Part shown: positions 32,560 through 36,959 of the stretch, piece by piece
Numbering within the stretch: the first letter of the stretch is position 1
How the letters are laid out: each line of letters opens with the position of its first letter
Assembly (NCBI RefSeq): GCF_000517625.1
Contig: NZ_CP007055.1
Coordinates: 558,001 to 622,000 of the forward strand
Origin: Halostagnicola larsenii XH-48
GTDB taxonomy: Archaea; Halobacteriota; Halobacteria; Halobacteriales; Natrialbaceae
DNA length: 64,000 nt
Reading direction: 5' to 3'
Translations under genes and position numbers: made by a program
Notes under the pieces: generated by a model
The model's database searches: none
Seen by the model: the letters and a program-made list of their open reading frames with translations, nothing else
Told to the model about the DNA's origin: nothing

Positions 32560-33030
32560 TTACAGTCCCTCGAGCGATCGAAGCTTCTGTTCGACCGCCG
32601 GCGGCGCGGCGCTTGGACCGTCCCGAATTCGGTGGTCGGGGATGAGAATCGGTGCCGGATTTTCCGCCAGTGCGGTTCGAACGAGGGTCACGTCGGCCTG
32701 CTCGTCCGGGTCGAGGCCGGGGGTCATTCGAGCGAGCCCCGCCACGTCGGTTCCCTCTCCGTACGGGATCGTCCGGACCTGTTCTAACACCTCGCGTTGG
32801 TCGGTCGGAACGGTGAGTGCGACGGTCACGTCCGAAAAGTCCGGTTCCTCGAGACCATCGAGATACTCGTCGAGTTCGTCGAGAATCGGATGGTCCGATT
32901 CGGCGTCCTCGTCGGGCGCGTCCGGGAACGTGACCCGCAACACGCGCCCGCTCGCGACCCCGATCTGGACGAACCGCTCGAGGTACGGCGACTCGCGCGC
33001 GTAGATCCCTGCGTCGGTGACGTCCTCCAT
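32560..33030 (-). CDS. MGMT-fold protein with Asp in place of the alkyl-acceptor Cys
   Basis: A 156-residue relative of O6-alkylguanine-DNA alkyltransferase. The C-terminal half follows the family order: [22 protein letters not shown] (the IPYGE motif), [16 protein letters not shown] (Arg finger and NP), then PDHRI where active enzymes have PCHRV. The acceptor Cys is therefore Asp132, so it cannot take up an alkyl group in the usual way. Cys-less alkyltransferase-like proteins flag alkylated guanine for excision repair; Asp is not the usual replacement. It is divergent from trpC; the start is ATG 33030. Confidence 0.8.
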
Positions 33031-33090
33031 ACGGTCCCTTCGGGGTGGCGTGGACTTGAATATTCGCCAGCCACAGCCCAATGGCGCAAG

Positions 33091-33121
33091 CCTTATGTAC
33101 ATATCAGTACGTCGGTGTACA
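33091..33121. promoter_or_regulatory. trp promoter with three GTAC words at 10-bp spacing
   Basis: GTAC occurs at 33097, 33107 and 33117, exactly one helical turn apart, and the set is symmetric: TGTACA-N5-GTAC-N5-TGTACA (33096-33121). It ends three bases before trpC ATG 33125 and overlaps the CTTATGTACAT TATA-like element, so a bound repressor could block initiation. It also faces the divergent MGMT-like gene. Confidence 0.6.
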
Positions 33122-33124
33122 ATA

Positions 33125-33933
33125 ATGAACTCCGAAAGCAACGTCGCACCCGCAGTCCGATCTATCCTCGAGGCTGCCCGGGAGCGAGGCCGAAGCGAGG
33201 GCGACGACGGGCCATCTGGCGGACGAACGCCCGCCAGCGACGGTCGAGTCTCCGTCGAGGCGCGTTCGCTTCCCGACGCGATAGAGCGGGCCGAACGCGA
33301 GGATCGAGTCCCGGTGATCGCAGAAGTCAAGCCGACGAGTCCGACCAGCGATGGAACGCGGGACGAGGATCCCGTCGAACTGGCCCGGGCGATGGTCGAG
33401 GGCGGCGCGAGCGCGATTTCGGTGTTGACCGAACCGACCCACTTCGATGGCTCGCCCGAGGCGTTGCGACGCGTTCGGGCCGCCGTCGACGTTCCCGTGC
33501 TTCGGAAGGATTTCGTCCTTCGAGAGTCACAGATGGACGTGGTCGAAGCAGACCTCATCCTCCTGATCGCGCGGTTCGTCGACGACCTTCCGGCGCTGGT
33601 CGCGGCCGCCCGCGACCGGGGATTCCAGCCGTTGGTCGAGGTCCACGACGCCGCGGAACTCGAGGCGGCCCTCGAGGCCGACGCCTCGATCATCGGCGTC
33701 AACAACCGCGATCTGACGAAACTCGAGGTCGATCTCGGGACGTTCGAGGGGGTCGCGCCCGCGGTCCCCGACGACGTGACGCTGATCGCCGAAAGCGGCG
33801 TGTCGGACCCGGCGGACGTGCGGCGGATGCGGGAGGCGGGTGCCGACGCACTGCTGATCGGTAGTGCGATCATGGATCACGCGAACACGGACGAGGTCGA
33901 CATCGCCGAAAACACCAGGAGATTAACACGAGT

Positions 33934-33937
<4 letters not shown>
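33125..33937 (+). CDS. trpC: Indole-3-glycerol-phosphate synthase
   Basis: A 270-residue TIM-barrel enzyme that closes the indole ring of indole-3-glycerol phosphate in tryptophan synthesis. Conserved pieces are [11 protein letters not shown] (catalytic Lys), [40 protein letters not shown] (catalytic Glu), IGVNNRDL and [13 protein letters not shown]. The N-terminal 40 residues are extended and charged. ATG 33125 directly follows the phased GTAC elements. Its stop overlaps trpB by four bases (ATGA), so the trpCBA genes are translationally coupled. Confidence 0.96.
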
Positions 33938-35231
<1,294 letters not shown>

Positions 35232-35232
<1 letters not shown>

Positions 35233-36140
35233 TGGTCGACGACGCCGGGGAAGCCGCCGACGCGAAAGCCACCGATGCGGAAAGCGGCGAAGGGTCCCCA
35301 ACCGAGACGGACGCCATCGCGACGGCGTTCGACGGCGGCGGGGCGTTCATCCCGTATCTCGCCGTCGGCGACCCGAGCTACGAGGCCTCCCTCGAGTACG
35401 TCGAGGCGCTGGCCCGCGGCGGCGCGGATCTGATCGAACTCGGCCTGCCGTTCTCGGAGCCGATGGCGGAAGGGCCGACGATTCAGGGGGCGGTCACGCG
35501 CGCGCTCGAGGCCGGCATGACGCCCGACCGCTTTTTCGAGTTCGTCTCGGACCTCGACGTCGACGTCCCGCTGGTCTGTATGACCTACTACAACCTGATC
35601 TACCAGTACGGTCCCTCCGACGGCCCGCGTTCGTTCGTCGAACGGGCCGCCCAGGTCGGCCTCGAGGGGTTCGTCGTCCCCGACCTGCCCGCCGAGGAGG
35701 CCGGACCGCTCCGGGAGGCTTGCGACGAGTTCGGACTCGACCTCGTCTTCATCGTCGCGCCGACGACTCGCGGCGACCGTCTCGAGCGGATGATGGAGCG
35801 CGTGTCGGGATACGTCTACGTGCAGGCCCGACTCGGCGCGACCGGCGCGCGCGACGACGTCTCCGATCAGACCGGCGAGAGTCTCGAGCGACTTGCCGAC
35901 TGGGAGATTCCGAAGGCGGTCGGCTTCGGAATAAAAACCGGCGAACACGCAGAGCGCATCGCCGCGGCTGGTGCCGACGGGATCATCGTCGGGAGCGCGC
36001 TCGTCGACATCGTCGCCGAGGGCCACGAAGACGACCGCCCCGTCGAGGAGACCGCGGATCGGCTCGAGGAGAAAGCTCGAGAACTCAAAGCGGGCGCGCG
36101 CCGCGGCGCGGAAAGACTGCCAGAACCAGAACATCCATAA
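35232..36140 (+). CDS. trpA: Tryptophan synthase alpha chain
   Basis: A 302-residue TIM-barrel subunit that splits indole-3-glycerol phosphate and passes indole to TrpB. The catalytic Glu is Glu69 ([12 protein letters not shown]). The residue matching the bacterial catalytic Asp60 is Glu80 (MAEGPTIQ), a conservative Asp-to-Glu change; the neighbouring FSD is FSE as well. The phosphate loop [14 protein letters not shown] and the ending VGSALVDIV are intact. The first 28 residues are an acidic extension. Its ATG overlaps the trpB stop (TGATG). The Glu variant may be usual in haloarchaea. Confidence 0.95.
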
Positions 36141-36164: not shown

Positions 36165-36959
36165 ATGACTACCGGAACTGACGCGCGACTCGACAGGATC
36201 GGGACGGACGGCAACTACGTCATCGTCCCGATGGACCACGGCATCACACTGGGTCCGGTAACGGGCCTCAAAGACATCGAATCGACCATCGACGCGGTGA
36301 CACGCGGCGGCGCAGACGCCGTGTTGACCCAGAGAGGGATCGCTCCCCGCGTCCACGAGAACAAAAACGGGAAGGGATACATCGTCCACCTCAACGCCTC
36401 TACCTCTATCGGCCCCGATTCGAACGACAAACGCCTCACCGGCACCGTCGAAGACGCGATTCGGGTCGGTGCGGACGCGGTCTCCTTTCACATCAACGTC
36501 GGCTCGAACCACGAACCGGACCAGATCACGCAACTCTCCGAAGTAACCTCCGAGGCCGCTCGCTACGGAATTCCCGTCCTCGCGATGGCTTACGCCCGCG
36601 GCCCGGACGTCGACGGCGCGGATCCCGAGGCGCTCGGCCACGCGGTCCGACTCGCCGAGGAGATCGGCGCGGACGTCGTCAAAACCGGCTACAGCGGCGA
36701 CGCGGACAGCTTCGAACACGTCTGTGAATCGACCCGGCTCCCGGTCGTCATTGCTGGCGGATCCAAAGGAACCGACCGTGAGACGATCGAGATGGTTCGA
36801 GGCGCGATGGATGCGGGCGGCGCGGGCATCTCGATGGGGCGCTCGATCTTCCAGCACGAGGATCCGGAAGCGATCGCCACGGCCGTCGCGGGCGTCGTTC
36901 ACGACGATCTCTCCGTCGACGACGCGTTAGCGACCGCCGGGCTCGCGCTCGAGGCCTGA
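36165..36959 (+). CDS. 2-amino-3,7-dideoxy-D-threo-hept-6-ulosonate synthase (archaeal shikimate route)
   Basis: A 264-residue class I aldolase-like protein of the ADH synthase (AroA') group. VIVPMDHGITLGPVTGL at the N-terminus, RVHENKNGKGYIVHLNAST, DAVSFHINVGS and VVKTGYSGD (Schiff-base Lys), with the phosphate-binding VIAGGSKGTDRE and GAGISMGRSIF, are the family pattern. It condenses a sugar-phosphate-derived unit with aspartate semialdehyde in archaea that lack the DAHP route. It follows trpA by 24 bases. The partner dehydroquinate synthase II is at 39249, so the locus supplies aromatic amino acids. Confidence 0.92.
   Translation: MTTGTDARLDRIGTDGNYVIVPMDHGITLGPVTGLKDIESTIDAVTRGGADAVLTQRGIAPRVHENKNGKGYIVHLNASTSIGPDSNDKRLTGTVEDAIRVGADAVSFHINVGSNHEPDQITQLSEVTSEAARYGIPVLAMAYARGPDVDGADPEALGHAVRLAEEIGADVVKTGYSGDADSFEHVCESTRLPVVIAGGSKGTDRETIEMVRGAMDAGGAGISMGRSIFQHEDPEAIATAVAGVVHDDLSVDDALATAGLALEA

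Follow-up and report, generated by a model that had tools for sequence, protein, structure and literature searches.

The region immediately upstream of trpC in Halostagnicola larsenii XH-48 carries a tandem, helix-phased array of TGTACA-like units, and a second array of this kind lies at the trpDFEG promoter of the same genome. On the basis of comparative sequence analysis, we propose that the two arrays are the operator of a TrpY-family repressor responding to tryptophan, a reading to which we assign a probability of roughly 0.72. It builds on the array itself, its conservation, its position, its distribution over two operons and its pattern of co-occurrence with TrpY, all of which are directly observed. 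The relevant features of the window (the whole 64,000-nucleotide stretch of DNA that was analysed) are as follows.

32560..33030, minus strand: divergent MGMT-like gene; marginal match to Pfam PF01035 (DNA_binding_1), 29.2 bits for a cut-off of 27
33085..33089, plus strand: BRE-like element CGCAA of the trpC promoter, from column conservation in 64 loci
33093..33096, plus strand: TATA element TTAT; T7, T8 and T10 invariant and A9 either A or T in all 64 loci
33096..33101, no strand: array unit 1, TGTACA, sharing the last base of the TATA element
33106..33111, no strand: array unit 2, AGTACG; core GTCC or GTGC in most other haloarchaea
33116..33121, no strand: array unit 3, TGTACA, in phase at 10 bp
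33126..33131, no strand: array unit 4, TGAACT, formed by the first two codons of trpC (ATGAACT), in phase at +10
33125..33937, plus strand: trpC, indole-3-glycerol phosphate synthase (NF041303, 400.7 bits)
33934..35232, plus strand: trpB, tryptophan synthase beta (TIGR00263, 580.9 bits)
35232..36140, plus strand: trpA, tryptophan synthase alpha (TIGR00262, 244.9 bits)
36165..36959, plus strand: ADH synthase, 2-amino-3,7-dideoxy-D-threo-hept-6-ulosonate synthase (TIGR01949, 358.2 bits)

Positions 33096-33121 read TGTACATATCAGTACGTCGGTGTACA, that is, TGTACA-N5-GTAC-N5-TGTACA with TATCA and GTCGG as the two spacers, and a 3-bp gap separates position 33121 from the trpC ATG (33125-33127); the symmetric element three bases before trpC described in the initial annotation is thus present as stated. 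The full pattern has a single match in the window and none in 100 dinucleotide shuffles, while the exact arrangement GTAC-N6-GTAC-N6-GTAC occurs once in the whole 4.13-Mb genome, at trpC. The element is part of a larger one, composed of four 6-bp units in exact 10-bp steps, the fourth of which is made by the start codon. Arrays were scored as sets of four TGTACA-like 6-mers with a constant period. The period-10 score at 33096 reached 30.0 bits; the runner-up among the sites of the window that do not overlap it scored 2.1, and 60 Markov-1 simulations of 64 kb gave a mean of 5.4 (SD 2.7, maximum 16.8).

The upstream regions of 64 related haloarchaeal trpC loci could be aligned without gaps and yield the consensus CGCAAGYCTTATGTACAnATnnGTnCGTTAnTGTACAnTAATGAAC. 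Conservation begins abruptly at the BRE-like CGCAA, the columns just upstream carrying about 0.1-0.5 bit. All 64 loci share an unchanged unit spacing and have G+1 and C+4 in each of units 1 to 3, and unit 4 retains both its G and its C in 55 of them. The comparison of haloarchaeal trp upstream regions proposed earlier therefore bears out the exact 10-bp spacing, which is conserved in haloarchaea (64/64 trpC loci) and beyond. The three identical GTAC cores emphasised in the same proposal are real in the window, but among the 64 loci three perfect GTAC words characterise the window's own family, the middle unit being mostly GTCC, GTGC or GTAC elsewhere; more generally, a G-N2-C pattern recurs every 10 bp, in four or five units. 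Codon 2 of trpC shows a strong preference for AAC or GAC (ATGAAC or ATGGAC in 49/64 loci; 33125-33131 in the window), possibly because this codon forms part of the operator.

Both promoter elements resemble the haloarchaeal consensus sequences, CGAAA for BRE and TTWT for TATA (PMC4983044). As TTAT ends where unit 1 begins, the array fills the stretch between the TATA box and the likely start site, running from the 3' edge of the former across the latter, the start site itself being a predicted one. The initial annotation had placed the array over the promoter; this holds for the promoter region, but the array lies downstream of TATA (33093-33096), over the likely start site, and not on the BRE/TATA elements themselves. 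With the start site so predicted, this is the position of a repressor, binding to which would block TBP or the polymerase. The proximity to the start codon of a biosynthetic operon could also evoke an RNA element of the trp transcript, such as a leader, riboswitch or attenuator. We regard this as highly improbable: 72% of haloarchaeal transcripts are leaderless (PMC4983044), the start site is expected downstream of most of the array, the array region has no match in Rfam, and the signal consists of short palindromic units at helical spacing.

It had been further suggested that the array may also control the divergent MGMT-like gene, an ORF (32560-33030) for which no NCBIfam match was found. 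An MGMT-like gene is located upstream of trpC in 50 of the 64 loci, at distances between about 80 bp and more than 1.5 kb, and is absent from the 3 kb examined in the other 14. Since the array is fixed relative to trpC and the MGMT-like gene is not, control of this gene is unsupported. The MGMT-like ORF stays near trpC in most haloarchaea, despite having no evident link to tryptophan.

The whole genome was searched with a sequence-only covariance model of the trpC block (R1), which retrieved trpC at 27.8 bits and then solely the trpD promoter (both strands, E about 1). This second array, at the trpDFEG promoter, is the only other good site of the genome. Its consensus over 50 haloarchaeal loci is CTTAAG-n5-TGTAC-n5-TGTACA-n4-AAGACG-n4-nGTACA-n4-TGTTCA, again in 10-bp steps, with fixed unit spacing and C+4 of all four units present in 49/50 loci. 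Depending on the locus, the array lies 48, 49, 51 or 60 nt from the trpD start, which indicates that selection acts on the spacing within the array and not on how far it is from the gene. A model built jointly from the trpC and trpD arrays (R2) scored 27.6 bits at trpC and 23.4 bits at trpD in the same genome, the remaining matches being weak. Across the class, R2 matches were found in 92 of 94 haloarchaeal genomes, mostly exactly two per genome; an extra third match corresponds to the opposite strand of the trpC site in most of the 8 genomes checked, as in Haloferax-like genomes, and degenerate arrays are nonetheless present at trpD in the two genomes that looked weak in this survey (G172 and G192).

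These scans, which yield the trpC and trpD sites only, suggest that the regulon comprises the two trp operons, and the link to tryptophan put forward in the initial annotation is strengthened by this confinement, seen both in the genome scan and in the 94-genome survey. A weak array-like site, GTGTGCAAATCAGCACATAAGTACACAT, was noticed at L283:1510-1545 (G000:C1:648102-648131; E 0.43); as a third regulon member it was discarded as a chance match, having no counterpart among the listed matches in the genus. The trpC operon appears to extend the regulon towards the aromatic pathway, the first archaeal step of which is ADH synthase; the gene for this enzyme probably forms one operon with trpCBA. 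The same arrangement is found in Halobacterium salinarum, where the gene order is trpCBA-OE1472F (PMC4162585).

The presence of only two sites also bears on whether the array could be an extended core promoter or initiator ensuring strong basal expression, its 10-bp periodicity reflecting contacts with the basal machinery. The array does abut TATA and take in the likely start site, and one report states, citing Large et al. 2007, that the native trpCBA promoter of Haloferax volcanii is not tightly regulated (PMC13147458), a statement that likewise speaks against tight control. A core element should, however, recur at many strong promoters, whereas in this genome just trpC and trpD match, and the array is set at different distances from the start at trpC and at trpD, with further variation among trpD loci. 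We therefore consider a core-promoter role improbable.

The array is not restricted to haloarchaea. Regions of about 17 kb around trpD or trpE were taken from non-haloarchaeal genomes of the same phylum and scored for periods 7 to 14. With families f13, f18 and f22 excluded, 30 loci remain: in all of them the highest-scoring period-10 array is located at the start of a trp gene, and in 27 period 10 outscores the seven other periods (chance 1/8, binomial about 1e-21). This 13-versus-30 split between families was drawn after the scores were seen, which makes the Fisher value for it purely descriptive. Three f21 loci among the 30 are counted as trpE starts; their computed offset is about -330 nt, since the TrpE query does not align there at its N-terminus. 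Depending on the lineage, the array precedes trpD, trpC, trpE or a trpB-like gene ahead of trpE; for example, TGTACAATTATGTTCGCCGTTGTACA is found before trpE (L224), TGTACAACATATATCGTTAATGTATAACATTGTACA runs into the start of trpC (L216), and TTGTACTATTTTGTATATATATGTACATTAAAGTATA precedes trpD (L210). In several methanogen families, the array stands before an extra trpB-like gene upstream of trpE (L221, L222, L223, L225, L241, L247). In none of the 13 loci of families f13, f18 and f22 did period 10 score best, and their trp starts yielded no array. The array is also absent from trpC of Methanothrix, as in such lineages it appears to sit at trpD (family f25). The helix-phased element thus seems to extend to essentially all haloarchaea sampled and to many of their methanogen relatives.

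A search for a TrpY-like repressor, recommended at the outset, yielded a candidate. The genome encodes a 167-aa protein with HTH and ACT domains (G000:C1:2779841-2780329, minus strand) that matches the NCBIfam model NF053754 (TrpY_fam) at 241.9 bits for a cut-off of 180, and a TrpY_fam member is single-copy and above cut-off in every haloarchaeal genome sampled (97/97), as well as being present in 190 of the 197 genomes of the phylum. The second residue of TrpY is Trp (MW...) in nearly all non-haloarchaeal members sampled and Phe (MFDEIM) in most haloarchaea sampled (L156 / L189). Haloarchaeal trpY is unlinked to trp, and no TGTACA array was found upstream of trpY in 30 haloarchaeal loci. In view of these array-free upstream regions, we rejected autoregulation of TrpY through the array, and the known autoregulation of TrpY appears to be missing in haloarchaea.

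Since TrpY_fam is near-universal in the phylum, its co-occurrence with the array rests on few absences and is moderately diagnostic. Both f18 genomes lack a TrpY_fam member above cut-off and lack the array. In f13 and f22, TrpY is present and the array absent: the predicted recognition helix of f13 TrpY reads DRKVVxxA, compared with DRRVVDxT in array-bearing lineages, and f22 TrpY keeps an RRVIDAT helix, yet the phased array was not found at f22 trp genes (L218, L268, L271). The f22 genomes may use another operator or carry the array elsewhere.

This limited diagnostic value lends some weight to the view that the array is a tryptophan operator recognised by another protein, for instance an Lrp/AsnC-type factor. 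LrpA2 (OE2776F) is the strongest rival regulator; in H. salinarum its expression rose 14.9-fold when aromatic amino acids were lacking, and it was proposed there as a regulator of the pathway (PMC4162585). The sites described for archaeal Lrp-like regulators, however, are AT-rich inverted repeats, whereas the array units are TGTACA-like palindromes at 10-bp steps. Moreover, the array occurs in families that differ greatly in gene content, is missing from the two f18 genomes devoid of TrpY, and is also missing from the f13 lineage with its altered TrpY recognition helix. A regulator other than TrpY is for these reasons unlikely, although more plausible than the core-promoter or RNA explanations.

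Returning to TrpY, we infer a repressor, most likely this protein, with tryptophan as its effector; cooperative binding on the array, as suggested in the initial annotation, is plausible. When tryptophan is plentiful, tryptophan-bound TrpY would settle side by side on consecutive units along one face of the DNA and prevent formation of the pre-initiation complex by blocking TBP/TFB or RNA polymerase at the start site, so that both trp operons would be shut off together; a fall in tryptophan would restore synthesis. The induction of both trp operons without aromatic amino acids in H. salinarum (PMC4162585) is consistent with such repression, while the finding that the TrpY homolog of Thermococcus kodakarensis does not regulate trp (PMC6737238) counts against TrpY. 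More tentatively, and at somewhat less than even odds, TrpY proteins may join through their ACT domains into an array at helical pitch along one face of the DNA, with one protein unit per turn, on an ancient, phylum-wide operator that has taken over the start codon of trpC for its final site, thereby locking coding and regulatory constraints together.

Archaeal control of amino-acid genes is poorly known, the tryptophan literature covered here being confined to a single methanogen (TrpY) and a single thermophile (Tar). Haloarchaeal TrpY now gains a specific predicted target, consisting of two operons and an exact operator, and dependence on helical phase is directly testable in organisms with good genetics, such as H. 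volcanii and H. salinarum. In such organisms, trp markers and promoters induced by tryptophan are standard tools.

The closest known system is TrpY with its TRP boxes in Methanothermobacter thermautotrophicus. The TRP-box consensus given by Xie and Reeve in 2005 is reportedly TGTACA. TrpY of this founding member also controls trpB2, and its gene is divergent from the trp operon and autoregulated through the boxes. M. thermautotrophicus TrpY binds the TRP boxes, repressing trp when tryptophan is present, and the haloarchaeal homologs form branches without assigned function (PMC6737238). The two systems share trp promoters with boxes resembling the TGTACA consensus, located over or next to the TATA box or start site, and a TrpY-family HTH and ACT regulator in the genome; the methanogen arrays before a trpB-like gene furthermore recall the control of trpB2. 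Here, in contrast, there are four or five units in strict 10-bp steps at two separate operons, trpY is unlinked and its own promoter is free of the array, and the start codon lies within the array. Tar (TK0271) of T. kodakarensis also controls trp/aro operons in an archaeon, but it is an activator whose site, a TGGACA-N8-TGTCCA palindrome, lies upstream of BRE/TATA (PMC6737238); a Tar-type site is ruled out by the position of our array downstream of TATA and by its architecture of 10-bp steps. The haloarchaeal Lrp/AsnC-type regulators LrpA1 and LrpA2 are likewise responsive to amino acids, LrpA2 of H. salinarum strongly so to aromatic ones, and differ in their sites as described above. Regulation of the TrpY/TRP-box kind has a precedent in one methanogen. 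Relative to the literature covered, the apparent novelty lies in its reach into haloarchaea and across much of the phylum, in a unit spacing of strictly one turn over four or five units, in the arrangement over two operons, in a trpY gene that is unlinked and apparently not autoregulated, and in a start codon serving as an operator unit.
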